A DNA stretch of 25,123 nucleotides from the IMG/VR virus record IMGVR_UViG_3300025132_000270, positions 1 through 25,123 of that record. One strand, given 5' to 3'. The DNA comes from a virus. Under the pieces are notes generated by a model. It saw only the letters and a program-made list of their open reading frames with translations. It ran no database searches and was not told where the DNA came from. The position numbers were made by a program, and so were the translations under genes. This document shows positions 1,713-22,560 of the stretch, piece by piece (the stretch's first letter is position 1; each line of letters starts with the position of its first letter).

Positions 1713-3290
1713 ATGACTGAATCGGGAGGATATTCACCAAAGGATTTGCATTTTGGCAAAGACGGACAATCAAAACTTATATCGGGAATAACTAAACTGT
1801 CTGACGCAGTGTCAAGCACGCTTGGTCCTATGGGCAACACAGTGCTGATTGAATCGCCGCAGCATACCCACGGCATAACAGTAACCAAAGACGGAGTGAC
1901 TGTAGCTAAATCAATACAACTGCTTGACCCGGTTGAGAACCTAGCGGTAAAGATAATGAAAGAGGCGGCTGACCGAACGGCTGCTGAGGCAGGTGACGGG
2001 ACCACAACGGCGATCGTAATCACTCAGGGTATAGTAAGAGCAGGCCTTGAGAAAATAAAACCCCAGGATAATAAAACTCAGATACTGCGTGACATTGTAA
2101 AGGCCAGTGAGGGTGTGATAAAAAAACTAGCCAAACAAGCACAGCCTGTAAGTGAGAAAAAATTAATGGACGTGGCAACAATCTCAGCGAACAATGACCC
2201 TGAGGTAGGAGGGATAATTGCAGATACCTACAAAGCGGTAGGTGAGCATGGGATCGTTACAGTGGAGAAGAGTCAAACCTCAGACACTACCTTTGAGACC
2301 ACCCATGGGATAAAAATAGATCGAGGGTACTCCTCACACCTGTTTGTAAACAATCACAAAAAAGATGAGTGTATACTTGAAAATGTGCACATCCTGGTAT
2401 GTGATGGGGATGTGAATAACATTCTCTCTATAGAGAAAGTACTCAAACCCATCATTGCCGATAATAAGAAATTATTAATAGTAGCGCCTTGTTCACAAAA
2501 CGTTATCAACACTTTAGCTGCTAACGTGATGAAAAATAACTTGAAGCTTTGTACCATCTCACCTCCCAACTTTGGGTACAAGCAACATGAGCTGATGAAT
2601 GACATAGCACTCTCAGTTGGCGCTACTTATTTTTCTGAGAAAACAGGGGATGACCTAAGCATGATAAACTTTTCAGATCTGGGGAAAGCAAAAAAAGTAA
2701 TTGTTGGCGCAGACCAAACAATAATTTTAAAAGATGATGACCATGTAGACCAAAGCCAGATAGACAAAAGAGTCGATGAGCTATGGGAGGCCCATAAAGG
2801 GACAACGAAAAAAATAGATAAAGAGTTTATAGCATCCCGCATCGCTTCTCTCACCGGAGGTGTGGGTGTAATTCGAGTAGGTGGGGCAACTGACCTAGAA
2901 CAAAAAGAACTGATAGACAGAGTAGATGACGCTGTGTGCGCCGTACGCTCAGCTCTTGTGGAGGGGATCCTTCCTGGAGGCGGAGTAGCGCTATACCAGA
3001 TAGGGATTGAAATGATGAAATCGCAAAAAATCGCTGACGCGATTTTAGGGGAGGCAATTATTCAGCCGTTAAAACAGATATTCTGTAATGCAGGATTGCC
3101 TTATGGCAAAGATGATGTGACCATCGGTACTAACGTAAAAACGGGAGAGACCGGTGACATGATCAAAATGGGGATCATAGACCCCATGAAAGTAACTAAG
3201 ACCGCGCTTCAAAACGCTGTCTCCGTTGCAAACACTATTTTATCAACCAACGCCATAGTGACTATGGCCCGAACTTATGAAACAAAATGA
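1713..3290 (+). CDS. groEL: Phage-encoded GroEL-type chaperonin, 525 aa
   Basis: Group I chaperonin that folds proteins in a double-ring ATP-driven cage, acting in the cytoplasm with GroES. Conserved nucleotide-site motifs are present: LGPMGN (37-42, with Met for the usual Lys), KDGVTV (59-64), GDGTTTA (94-100), RVDDA (403-407, holding the equivalent of the catalytic Asp398 of E. coli GroEL), PGGGVAL (421-427) and GIIDP (487-491, Asp495 equivalent). The apical domain is recognisable around 190-370. At 525 aa it is shorter than the ~545-aa bacterial proteins and lacks the C-terminal Gly-Gly-Met tail. It is the first gene of a three-gene operon and its TGA overlaps the next ATG (ATGA). Sampled lines are richer in G+C than the terminase gene. 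The likely job is folding capsid or fibre proteins; the identity is firm, the client inferred. Confidence 0.96.
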   Translation: MTESGGYSPKDLHFGKDGQSKLISGITKLSDAVSSTLGPMGNTVLIESPQHTHGITVTKDGVTVAKSIQLLDPVENLAVKIMKEAADRTAAEAGDGTTTAIVITQGIVRAGLEKIKPQDNKTQILRDIVKASEGVIKKLAKQAQPVSEKKLMDVATISANNDPEVGGIIADTYKAVGEHGIVTVEKSQTSDTTFETTHGIKIDRGYSSHLFVNNHKKDECILENVHILVCDGDVNNILSIEKVLKPIIADNKKLLIVAPCSQNVINTLAANVMKNNLKLCTISPPNFGYKQHELMNDIALSVGATYFSEKTGDDLSMINFSDLGKAKKVIVGADQTIILKDDDHVDQSQIDKRVDELWEAHKGTTKKIDKEFIASRIASLTGGVGVIRVGGATDLEQKELIDRVDDAVCAVRSALVEGILPGGGVALYQIGIEMMKSQKIADAILGEAIIQPLKQIFCNAGLPYGKDDVTIGTNVKTGETGDMIKMGIIDPMKVTKTALQNAVSVANTILSTNAIVTMARTYETK

Positions 3291-3514
3291 AAACACTAAT
3301 TATTTTACTGCTATTTAATTTGACGATCGAGAAAACTTTCTGCGACGGATGGGACGATGGATACTGCCAGGGATGGGAGTTTGTCAAAGGACCTGAGTTT
3401 AGTATATGCCCTTTGCCTCCACTGTGCCCCCTGCCTGAGATTTATCAGGAAGAGTACAAAGACGGATATCACCGAGGATTTTTAAAAGGACGTAAAGACG
3501 CCAAAGAAAATTGA
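3287..3514 (+). CDS. Small exported Cys-containing protein between groEL and groES
   Basis: 75 aa. The start MKTLIILLLFNLTIEKTFC looks like a signal peptide or short membrane anchor. Behind it are two related motifs, DDGYCQGW (23-30) and KDGYHRGFLKG (58-68), flanking a Pro/Cys segment (CPLPPLCPLPE, 41-51). Cys 19, 27, 41 and 47 could form disulfides if the protein leaves the cytoplasm. There is no convincing lipobox. It overlaps groEL by four bases (ATGA) and groES by four (TTGA), so it is translationally tied to both. I do not know its function. Its fixed place between two cytoplasmic chaperonin genes is odd for an exported protein. The coding call is strong; localisation is inferred. Confidence 0.75.
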   Translation: MKTLIILLLFNLTIEKTFCDGWDDGYCQGWEFVKGPEFSICPLPPLCPLPEIYQEEYKDGYHRGFLKGRKDAKEN

Positions 3515-3768
3515 AACCCATAGGCAAAAATATTCTGATAACAACTATCGAGGAGGAACTAAAAACCTCCTCCGGGTTGTTGCTCTCTTCTGAGGACGCT
3601 AGTCAGCTAAGGTATAAGAAAGGGAGAATTGTAGAGGTAGGGACCCAGGTAAAAGAAATTAAAAAAGACAGCGAGATATACTACGACAAAAGAGCAGGGT
3701 ATACCATGCTAATAAACGATACGCCTTATACTGTTATTCAAGAGACTGACGTTGTTGTTGTCTTATAG
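3511..3768 (+). CDS. groES: GroES-like co-chaperonin, 85 aa, TTG start
   Basis: Cap protein for the GroEL ring. The N-terminus KPIGKNILITTIEEE matches the first strand of Cpn10 proteins. Residues 15-32 (with GLLL at 22-25 in place of the usual Ile-Val-Leu) are the mobile loop that docks on GroEL, RYKKGRIVEVG (34-44) follows as the core barrel, and the end TPYTVIQETDVVVVL matches the last Cpn10 strands. It is shorter than the ~95-aa bacterial protein. There is no in-frame ATG near the N-terminus. The start is TTG at 3511-3513, overlapping the TGA of the preceding gene, which implies coupled translation. Its 3' end overlaps the convergent minus-strand gene by 35 bases. Confidence 0.88.
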   Translation: MKPIGKNILITTIEEELKTSSGLLLSSEDASQLRYKKGRIVEVGTQVKEIKKDSEIYYDKRAGYTMLINDTPYTVIQETDVVVVL

Positions 3769-4183
3769 CATCGTTTCGCCGAATGGTAGCATCGCGATAA
3801 AGCTTGAAGGTGTAAGGTATTTTAGTCTTTTTGAAAAAAGGGTTGTTGTCTTTGTGCTCGGGCATAAGCCCACCGTTTAAAATATCATAGACCCAACCAA
3901 CCATTCTAGTAGCTTTGTATGTAAGACCATAGATGGCTTTTCTTGTGTTGAGCTTAGGTTTATAGTTTTCTATCCACCCGTCTTTAATCATTCCATGGAA
4001 GCGAGCGCTGTCCCACTGGAAAAGTTTTTGGTATTCTGTAAATTTTTCTAAAGAAAAGTATTCTTCGCTATATAAAAAAAATAAAAAATCTAATTGCTCA
4101 GTACCTATTCCATATTTCTCTTTTACTAGTTTTCTTACTATTCTCCAATACTTCATGTAGTCGTTAGGTCGCTTAGATTTCAT
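3734..4183 (-). CDS. Putative winged-helix DNA-binding protein, 149 aa
   Basis: Minus-strand gene from the ATG at 4183-4181. Helical N-terminus (YMKYWRIVRKLVKEKYGIG), then a stretch that reads like a winged helix-turn-helix: EKFTEYQKLFQWDSARFHGM as candidate recognition region, DGWIENYKP as turn and wing, and YGLTYKATRMVGWVYDILNG as the closing helix. The tail is basic and Gln/Arg-rich (RRNDAIRQQQRQSLE). This layout is like MarR-type regulators, but I cannot name the family. It lies alone on the minus strand between two plus-strand operons, shares a promoter region with the late operon, and is therefore a candidate regulator of late genes or of itself. The coding call is firm; DNA binding is inferred. 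Confidence 0.8.
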   Translation of the reverse strand: MKSKRPNDYMKYWRIVRKLVKEKYGIGTEQLDFLFFLYSEEYFSLEKFTEYQKLFQWDSARFHGMIKDGWIENYKPKLNTRKAIYGLTYKATRMVGWVYDILNGGLMPEHKDNNPFFKKTKIPYTFKLYRDATIRRNDAIRQQQRQSLE

Positions 4184-4702: not shown

Positions 4703-4858
4703 ATGCCTACAGTAAAATTACCTAATGGAACTAAAAAAACTTTTCCTTACAACGCAGTTGGAAAAGCACAAGCCCATGCGTTTATGAAAATGTCTAAAGG
4801 GAAAATAAAAAATAATCCAGGCTATGGCATGGAGAAAAAAACAAAGTCAGGGTATTAA
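4703..4858 (+). CDS. Small basic protein, 51 aa
   Basis: Begins MPTVKLPNGTKKTFPYNAVG and ends NPGYGMEKKTKSGY. No membrane segment. The first strand-like part (VKLPNGTKKTFPY) followed by a helix (AVGKAQAHAFMKMSKG) suggests a minimal folded unit. Its TAA overlaps the next ATG (TAATG), indicating coupled translation. The family is one of the tiny basic proteins often seen near structural genes of marine phages. Function unknown. Confidence 0.7.
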   Translation: MPTVKLPNGTKKTFPYNAVGKAQAHAFMKMSKGKIKNNPGYGMEKKTKSGY

Positions 4859-5013
4859 TGGCAGGACGAACTAAAAAAAAAGGAAACAAAATTTGCTCAG
4901 CTGGTATAGCATGGGCGAAACGTACTTTCGATAAGTACCCTTCGGCTTACGCTAATATGGCTGCAAGTAAATATTGTAAAGATCCTAATTACGCTAAAAA
5001 AAGTAAAAGATGA
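4858..5013 (+). CDS. Small basic Cys-containing protein, 51 aa
   Basis: Begins MAGRTKKKGNKICSAGIAWA and ends YCKDPNYAKKSKR. Two Cys (13 and 40), many Lys and aromatic residues (KRTFDKYPSAYANMAASKYC). The start overlaps the previous stop (TAATG) and its TGA overlaps the next ATG (ATGA). The basic charge suits nucleic-acid or capsid-interior binding, which is inference. Not recognised beyond membership of this island. Confidence 0.72.
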   Translation: MAGRTKKKGNKICSAGIAWAKRTFDKYPSAYANMAASKYCKDPNYAKKSKR

Positions 5014-5099
5014 AAAATTATAAACAACCCGAGTGTCACTGTGGTAATACCTCAAATAATGATGGTCATTGCGATGGTTCAGATCAAACATGTAAATAA
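5010..5099 (+). CDS. 29-aa protein with a CDGSH-like iron-sulfur motif
   Basis: MKNYKQPECHCGNTSNNDGH leads into CDGSDQTCK. The core C-x-C-G-x-T...C-D-G-S resembles the CDGSH iron-sulfur domain, in which three Cys and one His hold a 2Fe-2S cluster. Differences: nine residues instead of eight between the second and third Cys, Asp where the ligand His should be, and an extra Cys four residues further. Whether it binds a metal is open. The gene overlaps the previous one (ATGA) and is followed five bases later by the next ATG, which supports it as real despite its size. Confidence 0.6.
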   Translation: MKNYKQPECHCGNTSNNDGHCDGSDQTCK

Positions 5100-5104
5100 T
5101 ATTT

Positions 5105-5242
5105 ATGAGTAAGCTAAGTAAAAACCAACGCAGAATTGCGAGAGTCGCTTTTCCTATGAATAAAATTACAGGCGCAGATTTTAAAAAGATGCGTGCAATG
5201 AAAGGCAAAAACAATCATGGGAGAGCTCAAAAAATGGCGTGA
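5105..5242 (+). CDS. Small basic protein, 45 aa
   Basis: Begins MSKLSKNQRRIARVAFPMNK and ends NNHGRAQKMA. Strongly basic, Cys-free, likely one or two helices (ADFKKMRAMKGKN). Its last 26 bases overlap the next gene in another frame. It sits in an unbroken run of same-strand tiny genes, which is the main support for it. Similar short basic proteins accompany structural genes in other marine phages; the function is unknown. Confidence 0.65.
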   Translation: MSKLSKNQRRIARVAFPMNKITGADFKKMRAMKGKNNHGRAQKMA

Positions 5243-5450
5243 TCAGAAGTGGGTTCGCATAGGCACAGACGGAAAGATTAAGGGCGCTTGCGGAACAAGC
5301 AAGAATAAAAAAAACCCTGATAGATGCTTACCATTAGCTAAGGCAAAGCGGTTAAGTAAAAAAGCTTTAGCCGCAACGGCTAAAAAGAAAAAAGCTTCAG
5401 GTGGCAAAAAACAATTTATAAAAAACACACGAGCAGTAAGAAATGCCTGA
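5217..5450 (+). CDS. Small basic protein, possibly DUF5872-like, 77 aa
   Basis: N-terminal motif W-R-D-Q-K-W-V-R-I-G followed by GKIKGACGTSKNKKNPDRCL (Cys at 25 and 37) and a Lys/Ala tail (LAATAKKKKASGGKKQ). This W..W..IG...G..CG......P.C pattern is like small proteins of the DUF5872 type, known from algal viruses, marine phages and bacteria. That recall is from memory and uncertain. The two Cys could coordinate a metal or form a disulfide. The gene overlaps neighbours on both sides (26 and 8 bases). Confidence 0.72.
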   Translation: MGELKKWRDQKWVRIGTDGKIKGACGTSKNKKNPDRCLPLAKAKRLSKKALAATAKKKKASGGKKQFIKNTRAVRNA

Positions 5451-5766
5451 TAAACCTACTATATCACAAGACTCTAATGTTAGTTTAGATATTAAGGCTC
5501 TAATAGGAATGGTTATAGGAATAGTCTCTATAGCTGGCGTTTGGTTTTCTCTTACAGCTGAAATTGCACAACTTCAATTAGATGTAGTGCGAATGGAAGA
5601 TACTGTTGGGCTTAATGAAGAGTTTAGAATTAAATGGCCTAGAGGAGAGATGGGAGCACTTCCTGATGATGCGAAACAAGATCTTAAAATATTGTATCTT
5701 CAATCTGAAGTTGAAGAGCTTAGAAAAATAGTTAAAGAATTAGAAATAGCTAACGCAAAAAAATAA
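5443..5766 (+). CDS. Membrane-anchored coiled-coil protein, 107 aa
   Basis: A polar N-terminus is followed by one membrane segment (about 18-39, IKALIGMVIGIVSIAGVWFS), then a coiled coil (EIAQLQLDVVRMEDTV), a conserved-looking linker NEEFRIKWPRGEMGALPDDA, and a second coiled coil (LQSEVEELRKIVKELEIA). The single N-terminal helix with an extended helical tail suggests an inner-membrane protein; an accessory lysis (spanin-like) or virion-entry role is possible. It overlaps the previous gene by eight bases and its TAA shares a base with the next ATG. Confidence 0.75.
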   Translation: MPDKPTISQDSNVSLDIKALIGMVIGIVSIAGVWFSLTAEIAQLQLDVVRMEDTVGLNEEFRIKWPRGEMGALPDDAKQDLKILYLQSEVEELRKIVKELEIANAKK

Positions 5767-6056
5767 TGGCTACAAAGTCTAAAATGAAATGTAATGTCGT
5801 TACCAAAAGCGACAGAGCCGGAAAGAAAAAAATGGTGAAAGCCTGCGAAGGGGGAAAAGAAAAATTAATTCACTTTGGAGCTACGGGATATGGACACAAT
5901 TATTCTGCTGCCGCAAGAAAATCTTTTCGCGCAAGACACAAGTGTGGTACCGCTAAATCAAAACTTACTGCGCGCTACTGGTCGTGCAAAAAACTCTGGG
6001 CTGGACCTGGGGGATCTACAAAAAGTTCACCTAAAAATAGGAAAGGAAAATATTAG
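5766..6056 (+). CDS. Basic Cys-rich protein with an RxxFxARHxC...ARYWxC motif, 96 aa
   Basis: Central motif HFGATGYGHNY, then RKSFRARHKCGT and KLTARYWSCKKLW, with a basic Gly/Ser tail. Cys at positions near 9, 27, 59 and 74 and two His make a small zinc-binding fold possible. The FG....R.SFRARH.C....ARYWSC pattern is, as I recall, shared by small proteins of marine phages and fused to larger phage structural proteins; this needs a search. The coding frame is coupled to the previous gene (TAATG). The promoter box for the next unit overlaps its end. Confidence 0.75.
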   Translation: MATKSKMKCNVVTKSDRAGKKKMVKACEGGKEKLIHFGATGYGHNYSAAARKSFRARHKCGTAKSKLTARYWSCKKLWAGPGGSTKSSPKNRKGKY

Positions 6057-6064
6057 TATCTTTG
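6057..6064 (+). promoter_or_regulatory. Internal promoter -7 box TATCTTTG
   Basis: Exact TAnnTTTG match directly after the stop of the previous gene and 26 bases before the ATG at 6091. It is the only gap of this kind between 4225 and 15083 and probably provides extra transcription of the fibre genes. Confidence 0.6.
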
Positions 6065-6090
6065 TATTTATAATTTAAAATTTTATTATT

Positions 6091-6291
6091 ATGAAACAAG
6101 GTTACAACGCTAGATTAGATGAGTCTCTAGGAGCTCGTCATGGCAAAAAATCTCAGTCATTCAAAGACAGAAGAGATGAAAGTAAAGCGATGTCTAAAAA
6201 AATATACGGACATGCATACGGAGCTGACCATTCAATGAGCTACGAAAAAAGAAGTGTAAAAAAACACGTGGGATCTTTAATTAAAAAATAA
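6091..6291 (+). CDS. Small basic protein, 66 aa
   Basis: Begins MKQGYNARLDESLGARHGKK, continues with a charged helix (SFKDRRDESKAMSKKIYGHA) and ends KKHVGSLIKK. No Cys, no membrane segment. The opening KQGYNARLDESLG seems familiar from small proteins of marine flavobacterial phages, without an assigned function. First gene behind the promoter at 6057; its TAA shares a base with the next ATG. Confidence 0.75.
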   Translation: MKQGYNARLDESLGARHGKKSQSFKDRRDESKAMSKKIYGHAYGADHSMSYEKRSVKKHVGSLIKK

Positions 6292-6455
6292 TGGCAGAAG
6301 GAAAAGGATGTGCAGACACAAAAAAAGGTTGCATTAGAAAAAGTGGCAGCACTTTTTATATACTAAATAATAAAAAAGGTGGAGTTTGGAGAAAAGGTTT
6401 TAAATCTAGACGAGCTGCTGTTAATCAATTAGCAGCGATGCACGCCAATAAATAA
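6291..6455 (+). CDS. Small basic Cys-containing protein, 54 aa
   Basis: Begins MAEGKGCADTKKGCIRKSGS. A pair of Cys (7 and 14) precedes a strand-like part (TFYILNNKKGGVWRKGF) and a helix (KSRRAAVNQLAAMHANK). The size, charge and Cys pair match its neighbours. The start shares a base with the preceding stop. Too short for confident fold assignment; a nucleic-acid- or capsid-binding role is possible. Confidence 0.7.
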   Translation: MAEGKGCADTKKGCIRKSGSTFYILNNKKGGVWRKGFKSRRAAVNQLAAMHANK

Positions 6456-6462
6456 ATATAAA

Positions 6463-6618
6463 ATGAAATCAAAAGGATTTGGTGATACAGTAGCAAAATT
6501 TACAAAAGCGACAGGAATTAAATATGTCGTAGATAAAGTTGCTGAGGCTACAAATTCTGATTGCGGTTGTGATGAAAGACGTGACACCTTAAACAGAGTA
6601 TTTCCTTATAAAAGATAA
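6463..6618 (+). CDS. Small protein with CGC motif (GFGDTVAKFTKATGIK type), 51 aa
   Basis: Opens MKSKGFGDTVAKFTKATGIK, an amphipathic helix, followed by VVDKVAEATNSDCGCDERRD and LNRVFPYKR. I recall very similar small proteins (G-x-GD.....T..TGIK..V.......DCGC..R.D.LN..FPY) in many T4-like and other marine phages, where they remain unassigned. The DCGC motif could bind metal. It ends six bases before the first structural gene, so it closes the tiny-gene island. Confidence 0.78.
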   Translation: MKSKGFGDTVAKFTKATGIKYVVDKVAEATNSDCGCDERRDTLNRVFPYKR

Positions 6619-8916: not shown

Positions 8917-10032
8917 ATGGCAACAACCAAAGTAACTACGGATGTAATTGACATGAGTGGTAATGCCGGAGGGCTAACCTGGGTGAAGGGCACTACAGCT
9001 CAGCGAGAGGCTACTCCTTCCACAGGAGTGGGTACCCTTCGAGAAAACACTGAGACAAACCGTACTGAAATATATACCGACCCAACTGGCGCTGGTGAAT
9101 GGAGAAATTTAAAGGAAGAAGCTGCTAGCTATACTTTTGCTCTTTCTTATTTAGTTGTTGGTGGCGGAGGTGGCGGCGGAGCTTCTTTCGGAGGTGGCGG
9201 TGGAGCAGGTGGTTATACTTCCTCCAGTTTTACCGCAAGCGCAGGCTCATTTACAATAACAGTAGGCGCCGGAGGGTCTGGAGCAAGTTATGCTACAAAT
9301 AATGCGGGCTCTGGAGGACAGTCGATTTTTAGTGGAACAGGAGTTAGTGTAACCGTGGATGGCGGCGGCGCCGCAGGAAGTACTACTTCAATTTGCCCTC
9401 CTACCGATCCCTCTTCTTTTGGTGGAGGAAACAGTGGATCGACCGGAGGATCTGGTGGCGGAGGTTCTGGATTTAGAGGTGGTGGATCAGCCACAGGTGG
9501 AGGAAGTGCAAGTGGAGCAGGAACTGGAAATGCTGGGGGACAAGGAGTATCTACTTCTAAAGACGAAGGTGGTGGTGGAGGTGGCGCTGGAGGCCCTGGA
9601 ACAAACGGAGGCTCAAGCGCTTCAAATGGAGGTGCCGGCGTAGCGGACAGTATAACAGGAGTAAGTGTTATATATGCTGCTGGTGGCGGAGGAAATGTTG
9701 GTTATGGAGGAGATACAGGAGCTCAAGGAGGAAATGGAGCTAGTTTTGGCGGTAGCACTGCTCAAAGTAATGGATATGATGGGAATGCTAATACCGGTAC
9801 CGGAGGCGGCGGAGGAAATGGATGTACAACTGGAGGTACGGGAGGCGATGGAGGTTCAGGAGTTATTATATTAAGATGCACAAAAGCTTCTGCTGTGTTT
9901 TCATCAGGAGTAACAGTTAACGGAACAGCAGGCGGGGGAACAATAAGCGGAGATACTTCTAATATGCCCGCCGGAGAATATTTTTATAAAATCACAGTAA
10001 CAACAGGAGGAAGTGAAACGGTAACTTTTTAA
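8917..10032 (+). CDS. Glycine-rich tail fibre adhesin, 371 aa
   Basis: An N-terminal module (about 20-68) contains LTWVKGTTAQREA, then a Gly-R/N-T segment and GEWRNL, related to the start of two other fibres here. From about 82 to 318 the chain is dominated by Gly runs with short polar or aromatic spacers (GGGGGGGASF, GGGGGAGGYTSSSF). It ends with the strand GGSGVIILRC, the usual close of glycine-rich domains built from packed polyglycine helices, as in the T4-like gp38 adhesins. The C-terminus (GGSETVTF) matches that of the paralogue at 11083. Such proteins sit at fibre tips and determine host range. Confidence 0.85.
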   Translation: MATTKVTTDVIDMSGNAGGLTWVKGTTAQREATPSTGVGTLRENTETNRTEIYTDPTGAGEWRNLKEEAASYTFALSYLVVGGGGGGGASFGGGGGAGGYTSSSFTASAGSFTITVGAGGSGASYATNNAGSGGQSIFSGTGVSVTVDGGGAAGSTTSICPPTDPSSFGGGNSGSTGGSGGGGSGFRGGGSATGGGSASGAGTGNAGGQGVSTSKDEGGGGGGAGGPGTNGGSSASNGGAGVADSITGVSVIYAAGGGGNVGYGGDTGAQGGNGASFGGSTAQSNGYDGNANTGTGGGGGNGCTTGGTGGDGGSGVIILRCTKASAVFSSGVTVNGTAGGGTISGDTSNMPAGEYFYKITVTTGGSETVTF

Positions 10033-10034
10033 TT

Positions 10035-11078
10035 ATGGCACACTACGCAAGAATATCAAATGAGGAGTTCACGGTAAGCGAGAGAGCGAGGCTTCGCGAG
10101 GCAAAGGATGAAAAGAATGTTATTGAAGCAAGCAACAGAGCAAGCGAAGAATACAATACACTTAAAAAAGCATATGAAGATTCTTTCACATCAGCAACTC
10201 TTCAAACCCTTGAAGGTGAGTTAGCTGTGTTACAATCACAGTATACTCCTGAAATGACTGAAGAGGAGAGAGAAGCACTTGATACTTCAATAACAGCAAA
10301 GAAAGCAGAGATAGATACTGAGAAAGCAGCACTTGTTCCGGGACAAGAAACAGCGCTAGCTAGTCTTAACGCTAAAGAAGCTGAAGGCACAGAAGCTTTA
10401 ACCTCTGAGATTGAAACACTTAACGCCACAATAGCTAACGCCTTATGCAGAGTAACTGCAGTATATCCGGGGGCCGAGGAAATAGAAATGGTTCCAGGTG
10501 ACAGTTCGGCTATAGATGCTGAAATATACGCGCTTGAAGAGAGTAAAAAAAATATTGATTTCACACAAGATGAAGAGGTATGGAAGGCAGAATTGGAAGC
10601 TATACAAGTTCAAATAAGAGCTAAGATTGAAGAGAAAAAAGACATTCCTAAAGTAGAGAAAGACAATACAGTGTACTGGGAAGGATACGCCGGAGGATGC
10701 AAAAGAACTTCATATAACACAAAAGGCGGTGAACATAAATTAGGAGGCGCCCCTTTTAGAAAAAATTACGCCGGCATAGGGCATCTCTACGATCCAGTTA
10801 GAGATGCGTTTTATAGCGAGTCTCCTTATCCTAGTTGGACGCTTAATGAGTCAACTTGCTATTGGGAAGCTCCCACACCGATGCCTGAGACTGGAGATGG
10901 GTGGTGGTGGAAAGAAGACACAACAGAGTGGGTAGATTATCCTTATACCTCTCCCATTTCTCCTCAACCTTTTCCTAGCTGGACGTACGATGGACTCAAA
11001 TGGGTTCCACCGGTGGAAAAACCAGAAGAAGGGTGTTATATGTGGATAGAAAGTGAATTAAATTGGGTAAATTGTTAA
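10035..11078 (+). CDS. Fibre protein: coiled-coil stalk and Trp/Pro-rich C-terminal domain, 347 aa
   Basis: Residues about 10-210 are a highly charged coiled coil (for example NRASEEYNTLKKAYEDSF and EEKKDIPKVEKDN). A conserved junction follows (TSYNTKGGEHKLGGAPFRKN then YAGIGHLYDPVRDAF). The last 85 residues hold Trp/Pro motifs (PYPSWTLNESTCYWEAPTP, GWWWKEDTTEWVD, PFPSWTYDGLKWVPP, MWIESELNWVNC) that repeat a P-S-W-T......W pattern. The same junction and W-rich end occur in cyanophage fibre and tail proteins, as I recall. It lies between the two glycine-rich adhesins, so the three may form one fibre. Start two bases after the preceding stop. Confidence 0.82.
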   Translation: MAHYARISNEEFTVSERARLREAKDEKNVIEASNRASEEYNTLKKAYEDSFTSATLQTLEGELAVLQSQYTPEMTEEEREALDTSITAKKAEIDTEKAALVPGQETALASLNAKEAEGTEALTSEIETLNATIANALCRVTAVYPGAEEIEMVPGDSSAIDAEIYALEESKKNIDFTQDEEVWKAELEAIQVQIRAKIEEKKDIPKVEKDNTVYWEGYAGGCKRTSYNTKGGEHKLGGAPFRKNYAGIGHLYDPVRDAFYSESPYPSWTLNESTCYWEAPTPMPETGDGWWWKEDTTEWVDYPYTSPISPQPFPSWTYDGLKWVPPVEKPEEGCYMWIESELNWVNC

Positions 11079-11082
11079 TAAT

Positions 11083-12159
11083 ATGGGACTAACTAAAGTA
11101 GGAGCAGGAGTAACAGGTTTAGACCAATCAGGTCAAACAAGTGGATTAAAAATGCCTACGGGCAGTGGAGCTTTTTCGGGAACACCCGTCGAGGGAATGA
11201 TGCGTAATGATACAAGTCAAACCTCTGAAGGCTCTAATAGTTGCATGCAACATTACAATGGAACAGACTGGATAAACTATGTAAACACTAACCCTCCCGT
11301 CGATGTTACATATCTAGCTGTAGCAGGAGGAGGAGGATCTGGAGGCAGCGTAGCAGGTGGCGGTGGCGCTGGTGGTCTTTTAACAGGAACTTTGGTTTTT
11401 AACCCAGGGATTACTTATACTTTAACTATAGGTGAAGGAGGAGCAGGGGGAACCAATCCTTCTGCTGGATCAGCTGGATCCGACTCTTCTATTAGTGGAT
11501 CAGATATTACCGACGTAACAGTAACAGGAGGAGGAAGAGGAGGAGACCGTAACGGAAACTCAGCTACCGCTGGAGGATCTGGTGGTGGTGGAGGTGCTCT
11601 TACTTCCACGGCAGCAGGTGCAGCAGGAAATACACCAAGCACCACTCCTAGTCAAGGTAATAGCGGAGGTACTGGAACAGACGGTGGCAGTTACCCAGGC
11701 GGCGGCGGCGGAGGAGCCGGAGGAGCCGGTAGTTCTCCGGGCCCAGGAGGTATAGGAGCAACAACTACTATTATAGACACGAGTGATGCTGCTACTTACT
11801 CAACTGGAGAGGTAGATGGTGGAAATGTATATTTTGCTGGTGGCGGTGGAGCCGGCTGTAATTCAGGCGGCCCGCATGCAGGAGGATTAGGTGGAGGCGG
11901 TAACGGAGCACAAAATTCAGGAAGTATTGCTGTAACAAGCGGCACGGCAAACACTGGCGGCGGAGGCGGAGGCGGTGAAACTGGAGCTGGAGGTGTTGGA
12001 GGAAGCGGCGGAAGAGGCGTTGTAATACTTCGTTATGATGGATCAAAAACTTTAACTGTCTCTGGATTTACTGCATCTTCAGGCCCATTTACAGCAAACG
12101 ATGATGCAACTAAAAAAATATTTATAGCTAAACAAGGAACAGGAACAGTAACATTTTAA
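11083..12159 (+). CDS. Second glycine-rich tail fibre adhesin, 358 aa
   Basis: Paralogous in layout to the gene at 8917. The N-terminal module (about 21-66) reads GLKMPTGSGAF...EGMMRNDT...HYNGTDW, the same LPxG / RNT / WDGxxW plan as the 973-aa fibre that follows. Residues about 81-312 are Gly-rich (AGGGGSGG, AGGGGAGG-type runs) and close with GGRGVVILRYDG. A short beta tail ends GTGTVTF. Expected at the tip of a fibre. The spacer residues between Gly runs differ completely from the first copy, as expected if the pair binds different receptors or evolves quickly. Four bases separate it from the gene before. Confidence 0.84.
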   Translation: MGLTKVGAGVTGLDQSGQTSGLKMPTGSGAFSGTPVEGMMRNDTSQTSEGSNSCMQHYNGTDWINYVNTNPPVDVTYLAVAGGGGSGGSVAGGGGAGGLLTGTLVFNPGITYTLTIGEGGAGGTNPSAGSAGSDSSISGSDITDVTVTGGGRGGDRNGNSATAGGSGGGGGALTSTAAGAAGNTPSTTPSQGNSGGTGTDGGSYPGGGGGGAGGAGSSPGPGGIGATTTIIDTSDAATYSTGEVDGGNVYFAGGGGAGCNSGGPHAGGLGGGGNGAQNSGSIAVTSGTANTGGGGGGGETGAGGVGGSGGRGVVILRYDGSKTLTVSGFTASSGPFTANDDATKKIFIAKQGTGTVTF

Positions 12160-15097: not shown

Positions 15098-15397
15098 ATG
15101 GAAACAACAATTTTAATACTTATCGGATTAGTAATACTACTAATCGTAATAAACATAGTCTCAATATGGCTATCAAAAAAAGGTCTTACTAAAGACGAGA
15201 ACAATAACATGATTCCGGACATCTTAGAGCATAAATTTGCTCAAATGAAGAAAGATGTATCTAGAAAAGTAGATCGTGTCGGAGAAGAGCTTAAAGATGT
15301 TACTAAAGCTATAAAAGAAGTAGGTAATCAAATCGGAGATGTTCCAAGCGCAATGCAAGGGAAAAAAAGATCTGGTAAAAAATCTAAAAAAAGATGA
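15098..15397 (+). CDS. Single-pass membrane protein with basic coiled-coil tail, 99 aa
   Basis: A hydrophobic helix at residues 4-25 (ILILIGLVILLIVINIVSIW) is followed by SKKGLTKDENNNMIPDIL, a charged coiled coil (about 45-85) and a Lys-rich end (GKKRSGKKSKKR). Orientation is probably N-out, C-in. It opens the lysis gene cluster and overlaps the next ATG by four bases (ATGA). A holin, holin regulator or spanin-like accessory role fits the place; the sequence alone does not decide. Confidence 0.75.
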   Translation: METTILILIGLVILLIVINIVSIWLSKKGLTKDENNNMIPDILEHKFAQMKKDVSRKVDRVGEELKDVTKAIKEVGNQIGDVPSAMQGKKRSGKKSKKR

Positions 15398-15477
15398 ATT
15401 ACGTGCAAGACACTACTCTAGGGAAAATAACTGTAAACTATATTTATGTTTCATCTAACCAAAATAACTGTGACTGA
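15394..15477 (+). CDS. Possible 27-aa peptide
   Basis: ATG overlaps the stop of the preceding gene (ATGA) and gives MNYVQDTTLGKITVNYIYVS plus SNQNNCD, ending at TGA 15475-15477. It overlaps the start of the holin candidate (15446) by 32 bases in another frame. It may be a real coupling peptide that carries ribosomes to the 15446 start, or a chance frame. No homology can be claimed. Confidence 0.3.
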   Translation: MNYVQDTTLGKITVNYIYVSSNQNNCD

Positions 15478-15619
15478 TATAAAAGTTTATGCGCTAACGG
15501 CTGGAGCCCTAGCCACTTCAATGACGGATATTGACGTTATTCTTAAAATTATTGCTACCCTGGTAGCGATAGGATACACTTTGCATAAATGGTATATAAT
15601 GCATGGAAAAAATAAGTGA
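15446..15619 (+). CDS. Holin candidate, 57 aa
   Basis: MFHLTKITVTDIKVYALTAG begins the protein. A first hydrophobic stretch around 14-25 and a clear membrane helix around 29-46 (DVILKIIATLVAIGYTLHKW) are followed by a short basic tail (MHGKNK). Small size, two hydrophobic stretches, a charged end and direct overlap (17 bases) with the endolysin gene are the classical features of a class II phage holin, which forms lesions in the inner membrane to release the lysin. A competing holin candidate lies at 16132. Too short to be noticed by long-ORF methods but well supported by context. Confidence 0.68.
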   Translation: MFHLTKITVTDIKVYALTAGALATSMTDIDVILKIIATLVAIGYTLHKWYIMHGKNK

Positions 15620-16064
15620 GCACGTATCGTATAAAGAAGGTGTTAAATCTAATACAGCAAGTAGACTAGGTATAGAAAACACTCCAGGCTCTTACGAGCT
15701 TTCTAATATGGGAATACTAGCGGATAATATTTTTGAACCCTTAAGAAAATGGGTAGGAGGGCCTATAAAGATTAATAGTTTTTTTAGATGTGAAGATTTA
15801 AACCGAGCTATTGGCGGAAGTTCCCGATCACAACATTGCCAGGGGCGCGCGATTGACCTGGATGATACTTTTGGACATAAAACAAATGCAGAGATGTTTC
15901 AGTATATTAGAGAAAATTTAAATTTTGATCAAATTATTTGGGAGTTTGGTGATGATACTAATCCCGACTGGGTTCACGTGAGCTATGTATCCGAAAGCGA
16001 AAATAGAGGCAGAGCGTTAAAGGCTGTAAAAGAAAACGGAAAAACTAGCTATAAAGTAATATGA
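15603..16064 (+). CDS. Endolysin: M15-type zinc D,D- or L,D-peptidase, 153 aa
   Basis: Cuts peptide cross-links or stems of peptidoglycan at the end of infection. The M15 zinc motif is visible: SQHCQGRAIDLD gives ligands His78 and Asp85, and PDWVHVSYV gives His125, with Asp122 three residues before it where M15 enzymes keep an acidic catalytic residue. Residues 50-68 (WVGGPIKINSFFRCEDLNR) match the preceding part of the family, in which an S-x-x-R pattern is usual. The length is that of a single-domain phage lysin, with no cell-wall-binding domain. No signal peptide, so release depends on a holin. It overlaps the holin candidate before it and, by four bases, the membrane peptide after it. Confidence 0.9.
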   Translation: MEKISEHVSYKEGVKSNTASRLGIENTPGSYELSNMGILADNIFEPLRKWVGGPIKINSFFRCEDLNRAIGGSSRSQHCQGRAIDLDDTFGHKTNAEMFQYIRENLNFDQIIWEFGDDTNPDWVHVSYVSESENRGRALKAVKENGKTSYKVI

Positions 16065-16135
16065 AAATAATTTTAAAATCTGCGCTTTACGGCTTATTAA
16101 TTTTTTATGTTAGTTTAATTTATATAACATCATGA
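16061..16135 (+). CDS. 24-aa membrane peptide in the lysis cassette
   Basis: MKIILKSALYGLLIFYVSLI plus YITS: two positive residues followed by one long hydrophobic helix, that is a minimal membrane peptide. It overlaps the endolysin stop (ATGA, 16061-16064) and the next gene start (ATGA, 16132-16135), so exact fit on both sides supports translation. The place right behind the lysin is where phages often encode spanins or holin regulators, but it is too short to span the periplasm. Confidence 0.6.
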   Translation: MKIILKSALYGLLIFYVSLIYITS

Positions 16136-16629
16136 GTAAACCTAAGAAAAAATTTGGACAAACTACAGTAGGTCGGCTTTTAAAAGCATCGGTAGGACTT
16201 ATTAACCCTACATTAGGAAAAATTATACAAGGAGATATGTCGGTGGAACAAGTCGTCTCTTCTATTAAAAACTCAGACGCCCCCGCAGAAGATAAAATTA
16301 GAGCTCAAGAAATGGTGTTAGAAGCTTATGAAGCGGAAGTAGCAGATCGAGCCAGCGCTAGGCAGCGTGAAATGGCGGCATTAGCTGCCGGGTCTAATGA
16401 TATACTTTTTAAAACCGTGGGATGGGGAATCACGATTTGTTTTGTCGGTGTTGTAGCCGGAGCGATAGGTTTGTGGGAAGTGCCAGAAGAATCCCAAAGG
16501 CTATTTGATATGGGTTTTGGAGCGGTAGTGGCGGCTTTTACTCAAGTTATTGGATATTATTTTGGATCTTCAGCAGGAAGTAAACATAAAACTAACATGA
16601 TGAGTGATGGCCAAAACAATCAACTATAA
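16132..16629 (+). CDS. Holin of the GTA/3TM type, 165 aa
   Basis: The N-terminal half is soluble and charged (FGQTTVGRLLKASVGLINPT, then AQEMVLEAYEAEVADRASAR). The C-terminal half has hydrophobic segments at about 95-114 (TVGWGITICFVGVVAGAIGL) and 127-147 (MGFGAVVAAFTQVIGYYFGS), closing with YFGSSAGSKHKT. The AR.RE...A....D...K..G..I.........VIGYYFGSS.GSK.K pattern is that of phage holins of the 3TM family (GTA holin type), as I recall it. It follows the endolysin within the lysis cassette. Two other small membrane proteins compete for the holin role, so the group may act as holin plus regulators. Confidence 0.75.
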   Translation: MSKPKKKFGQTTVGRLLKASVGLINPTLGKIIQGDMSVEQVVSSIKNSDAPAEDKIRAQEMVLEAYEAEVADRASARQREMAALAAGSNDILFKTVGWGITICFVGVVAGAIGLWEVPEESQRLFDMGFGAVVAAFTQVIGYYFGSSAGSKHKTNMMSDGQNNQL

Positions 16630-22537: not shown

Positions 22538-22560
22538 TTTTATAAATCAAATCTAATCAA

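Follow-up and report, generated by a model that had tools for sequence, protein, structure and literature searches.

Why does a gene for a small, apparently exported protein lie between the two genes of a phage chaperonin? The question is raised by a virus record of 25,123 bases (the whole of it was analysed and is called the window here), in which the gene for a 75-aa protein separates groEL from groES. The original prediction took this middle product for an exported cysteine protein and offered three roles for it, namely a client of the chaperonin, a regulator, or a moron-like gene of the cassette.

The chaperonin operon and its relatives

The operon contains the following features.

1675-1682, + strand: Bacteroidota-type -7 promoter element TACCTTTG (TANNTTTG), 38 nt 5' of groEL
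1693-1701, + strand: AAWTYWAAT leader motif, between the promoter and the groEL start
1713-3290, + strand: groEL, group I chaperonin, 525 aa (ORF, Pfam, PHROG)
3287-3514, + strand: gene of the 75-aa, putatively exported Cys-hairpin ("DGY") protein (ORF, family profile, dN/dS)
3511-3768, + strand: groES, 85 aa, TTG start (ORF, Pfam, PHROG)
3734-4183, - strand: 149-aa gene in convergent orientation, overlapping the groES 3' end (ORF; phrog_17028, 6e-9)

The coordinates confirmed the predicted three-ORF layout. The 75-aa gene overlaps groEL by the 4 nt ATGA (3287-3290) and groES by the 4 nt TTGA (3511-3514), and these stop-start overlaps on both sides bear out the claim of translational coupling. 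The groES start is TTG in the window and ATG in relatives. Both chaperonin genes are those of a group I system, with a full-length Cpn60 that has the ATP-site motifs and a Cpn10. GroEL matches Pfam Cpn60 (2.1e-47) and phrog_5725 (3e-130) and retains KDGVTVAK, GDGTTT and RVDDA; its nearest solved relative is a reconstructed ancestral Fibrobacteres-Chlorobi-Bacteroidetes chaperonin. GroES matches Pfam Cpn10 (2.9e-12) and phrog_3188 (5.9e-13) and keeps a mobile-loop-like stretch, SSGLLL.

The upstream signals are shared by the relatives. TANNTTTG occurs in 49 of 59 non-redundant groEL upstream regions (4.4 expected from shuffles), nearly always 24-39 nt 5' of the groEL start, and the AAWTYWAAT leader in 47 of the 59 (2.6 expected). 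On the + strand, no TANNTTTG site was found between 2288, within groEL, and 3910. The convergent 149-aa gene, whose like is also present in L140, L145 and L147, marks the operon end. Because there is an upstream promoter, no further TANNTTTG site but that at 2288, and a convergent gene at the end of groES, groEL, the cargo gene and groES are probably one transcription unit.

The leader motif also appears elsewhere in the window (4693 and 22544-22557, and 4195 on the - strand), just 5' of phage start codons and often 3' of a TANNTTTG promoter element, and may serve throughout the phage as a signal for regulation or translation. Downstream of the operon lie M15 endolysin, terminase and portal genes. 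Short lysine-rich ORFs (51-96 aa) follow one another at 4703-6618, separating the structural genes from the chaperonin operon; one of them matches phrog_23735, for which PHROG gives no function. At 8917-12159, a 347-aa protein is flanked by two very glycine-rich ones, of 371 and 358 aa, that are probably part of a fibre or of the virion.

A complete chaperonin pair had been considered rare among phages. This may hold for phages at large, but it did not survive for this lineage. The GroEL search of IMG/VR returned 80 loci, and wherever the record is long enough groES follows 3' of groEL on the same strand; in the loci without groES, the record ends within or soon after groEL. The widest gap was seen in L041, where groES lies about 3.5 kb beyond groEL. 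Among cultured phages, Elemovirus, Cellulophaga phi38:1 and Maribacter phage Panino also carry both genes, the last according to its authors (PMC11590407), and a 2017 paper had already remarked on GroEL in Flavobacteriaceae phages of this kind (PMC5332604). Elemovirus (Flavobacterium phages vB_FspP_elemo) resembles the window lineage as a podovirus of about 60 kb with groEL followed by groES. However, its two genes are in direct contact with no gene in the junction, and its GroEL is only about 37% identical to that of the window. In phi38:1 (gp005-gp007), a small hypothetical gene does lie between the chaperonin genes, but the order is groES, a 90-aa gene, groEL; the likeness is one of position.

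A small protein with a signal segment and paired cysteines

The 75-aa gene shows the marks of selection. Between the window and L003 its dN was 0.14 against a dS of 1.5, and dN/dS ranged from 0.08 to 0.22 in six pairs of the family, so the gene encodes a real, functional protein under purifying selection. Both of the DGYxxG motifs that had been noted are present, as DGYCQG (residues 24-29) and DGYHRG (residues 59-64). The residues that bear on export are as follows.

3287-3334, + strand: predicted signal peptide region MKTLIILLLFNLTIEK (hydropathy, family-wide conservation; cleavage predicted)
3341-3343, + strand: Cys19 (C1), predicted partner Cys47
3365-3367, + strand: Cys27 (C2), predicted partner Cys41
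3407-3409, + strand: Cys41 (C3), predicted partner Cys27
3425-3427, + strand: Cys47 (C4), predicted partner Cys19

The N-terminal hydrophobic run goes beyond what composition would give (34 of 20,000 shuffles were as high), and all full-length relatives have such a run at the N-terminus, preceded by one or two basic residues. The suggestion of a signal-peptide-like start was thus upheld. Structural disulfides form outside the cytoplasm. C1 and C4, C2 and C3, and C5 and C6 each occurred together or were missing together in 43 of 43 modules, and in 30 of 30 after 80% redundancy removal, although these counts reflect few independent changes on the module tree (2, 3 and 4) and the statistics should not be overread. 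Unpaired columns in the 43 modules showed no such agreement. The two main pairs occur in three states: both, only C1-C4, or only C2-C3. Because the cysteines come and go strictly in pairs, nested disulfides are predicted. The signal-type start and the paired cysteines together support, at the level of sequence, the claim of an exported Cys protein, with cleavage and oxidation as predictions. Sec export and envelope oxidation to a helical hairpin with the nested disulfides C19-C47 and C27-C41 are strongly indicated.

AlphaFold2 gave a pLDDT of only 52 on the single sequence; with a 21-sequence alignment the values were pLDDT 82 and pTM 0.69, with helices at 2-34 and 60-74 around a Pro/Cys loop. 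No fold match to this model was found in the PDB (E <= 0.001) or BFVD. In alpha-hairpinin and CHCH proteins, two helices are joined by nested disulfides with twin Cx3C or Cx9C motifs. The protein predicted here has a similar helix pair and nested disulfides, but its spacing is C-x7-C ... C-x5-C.

Judged from its sequence, the 75-aa protein is a member of an unnamed family of small, apparently exported domains. It falls under no Pfam, PHROG or NCBIfam family and has no match among PDB sequences. The single-sequence search gave no match in phage records and two loci in IMG/VR; such searches reached close relatives only, and profile searches were therefore needed. One profile, A3, proved too diverse to serve in a pattern scan. 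None of the cultured phage records gave a match to the family. Several weak matches were discarded. Streptomyces phage matches had E values of 0.1 and above, the weak PHROG and NCBIfam matches covered only the GYxxG stretch or fell below any cut-off, and L091 from the genome scan was a chance match within an amylase-like protein. The Yae1/Lto1 deca-GX3 family was matched by L090 only (Yae1_N, 11.2 bits at E 0.32, where the cut-off is 27.5 bits), and the Alvin_2107 sulfur-globule family (NF049856) reached 20.7 bits at best against the NCBI cut-off of 60.

Cargo at the groEL-groES junction

Sixty-four distinct groEL-groES junctions were compared. Twenty-five are empty, with groEL and groES in direct contact or overlapping, and the 39 filled ones hold about 19 ORF families. 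The cargo includes PhoH-like and PAPS-reductase-like proteins, small membrane proteins, a lipoprotein-like protein (L011) and others, with the 75-aa family accounting for 9 loci. The PhoH-like ATPase (11 members; Pfam PhoH 1.8e-52) is encoded by a 218-aa gene that one sub-clade carries as a stable alternative cargo, at the junctions of L017, L020-L023, L025-L027, L029, L038, L040 and L075. The PAPS-reductase-like cargo belongs to phrog_424, of the moron class, and PhoH too is a recognised type of moron.

When the empty junction of L068 was set against the filled ones of the window, L003, L140 and L147, the difference was exactly one ORF, and the ATGA-type joints were kept. On the GroEL tree, the 75-aa gene appears in separate places of one supported clade of 18, which takes at least 4 changes, and 17 of the 18 members carry some cargo. 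The columns behind the module tree are too few to show whether the junction copies are one clade. In conclusion, the groEL-groES junction is a variable cargo slot in which whole ORFs are exchanged via stop-start overlaps, and this is well supported.

One of the small membrane proteins, of 60 aa (ISQNLAIPFW...), is junction cargo at L007:2787-2969, L009 and L010. A relative of it at L141:5673-5858 adjoins an exported Cys gene in an unrelated phage without groEL.

These empty and filled junctions and swapped cargo families bear out the moron-like reading of the original prediction. As with phage moron and auxiliary genes, the 75-aa gene is inserted between conserved genes, is absent from close relatives or swapped there, and is shared by unrelated phages. 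A moron in the strict sense has its own promoter and terminator. The 75-aa gene is not one, because it has no promoter of its own: no TANNTTTG lies near it and it is coupled to the operon on both sides.

Distribution of the family and the likely role of the protein

Does the protein serve the phage chaperonin as a substrate or regulator, and is that why its gene is kept between the other two? The position and the tight coupling with groEL and groES speak for it, and within groEL phages the family was found only in the groEL-groES junction, so that some functional tie to the chaperonin is conceivable. But of the 24 viral loci in which relatives turned up by profile search, only 7 have the member flanked by groEL and groES. 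The other 17 are phage records of 5-106 kb taken whole, all without groEL; some are fragments, and others are contigs of 67, 95, 104 and 106 kb. Conversely, the protein is missing from 21 of 24 groEL-phage records, many of them about 60 kb long. With the bacterial loci added, the neighbour check placed most relatives away from chaperonin genes, so the gene does not always accompany the chaperonin. Other gene families occupy the same slot, and the export-type start and paired cysteines fit poorly with GroEL, which acts in the cytoplasm. Since the gene is swappable cargo and the family occurs in many flavobacterial viruses and some hosts, the protein is probably not a chaperonin partner, and we regard the client or regulator idea as very unlikely.

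Outside the viruses, 13 of 399 genomes from the order Flavobacteriales contain the module, as do 2 of 395 from the phylum. Phage members are single-copy modules, while secreted Flavobacteriales proteins have 2-6 tandem copies: two in L097 (135 aa), three in L096 (210 aa) and six, behind a signal peptide, in L090:5557-6780, from a Fluviicola MAG. Some bacterial proteins have a single module, and it also occurs as a C-terminal domain after low-complexity linkers. One bacterial member with the C2-C3 pair only (L130:6185-6487) lies about 2 kb from a tyrosine-recombinase-like gene and is probably on a mobile element. The tandem and C-terminal host forms suggest that the phage module could mimic or compete with host proteins, for example by blocking or replacing a host surface protein that affects phage entry. 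Against this, the host genes are rare and patchy, which leaves such mimicry rather improbable. A part in lysis or envelope breakdown late in infection would suit a small exported protein, and genes for an M15 endolysin and for small membrane proteins lie at 15098-16629 of the window. But some 12 kb separate the chaperonin operon from the endolysin, and the operon is apparently transcribed on its own. In non-chaperonin phages, moreover, the gene is often in replication regions, for example 3' of an ERF-family gene or near primase-like genes, and not in lysis cassettes. A lytic role is therefore hard to credit.

The reading we prefer, with a probability of about 0.62, takes the 75-aa gene for moron-like cargo in the groEL-groES slot of flavobacterial podoviruses, with a product that acts in the envelope. 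The groEL promoter and translational coupling would let the protein be expressed together with the chaperonin, and shared position and expression would be its only tie to it. It would then be exported via Sec, oxidised in the envelope with the hairpin pinned by its two disulfides, and do its work either in the periplasm or on the infected cell's surface.

Superinfection exclusion or another envelope change would be the most likely activity. Superinfection exclusion is our leading guess, since small exported phage proteins are well known in this role and since in other phages the gene lies in replication, and so probably early, regions, though taken alone the odds are somewhat against it. Ltp of phage TP-J34, a superinfection exclusion lipoprotein, has a serine-rich spacer and is the product of a lysogeny module (PMC3952083). 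The 75-aa protein may share its working principle, as an exported phage protein with a repeat domain that acts outside the cytoplasmic membrane. The likeness ends there: Ltp is a lipoprotein of a lysogeny module, while the window protein has no lipobox, its conserved Cys19 standing in EKTFC after the hydrophobic run, and the 75-aa family gave no Pfam match to the Ltp repeat domain. A more novel idea than superinfection exclusion is that the protein competes with the tandem-module proteins of hosts. Single modules in phages and tandem arrays in hosts could also belong to a conflict system at the cell surface, between phage and host or phage and phage, with the junction as a standard docking site; we hold this to be doubtful.

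The analysis removes the tempting but weak idea of the 75-aa protein as a chaperonin client, and it gives an uncharacterised exported phage family a definition by its signal segment, Cys pairing rule, domain boundaries and distribution in phages and hosts. It also shows the groEL-groES junction of one flavobacterial phage lineage to be an exchange site for whole-ORF cargo. Because PhoH, PAPS-reductase-like and apparently exported cargo can be read at this one site, the junction is a useful place to seek host-takeover genes.
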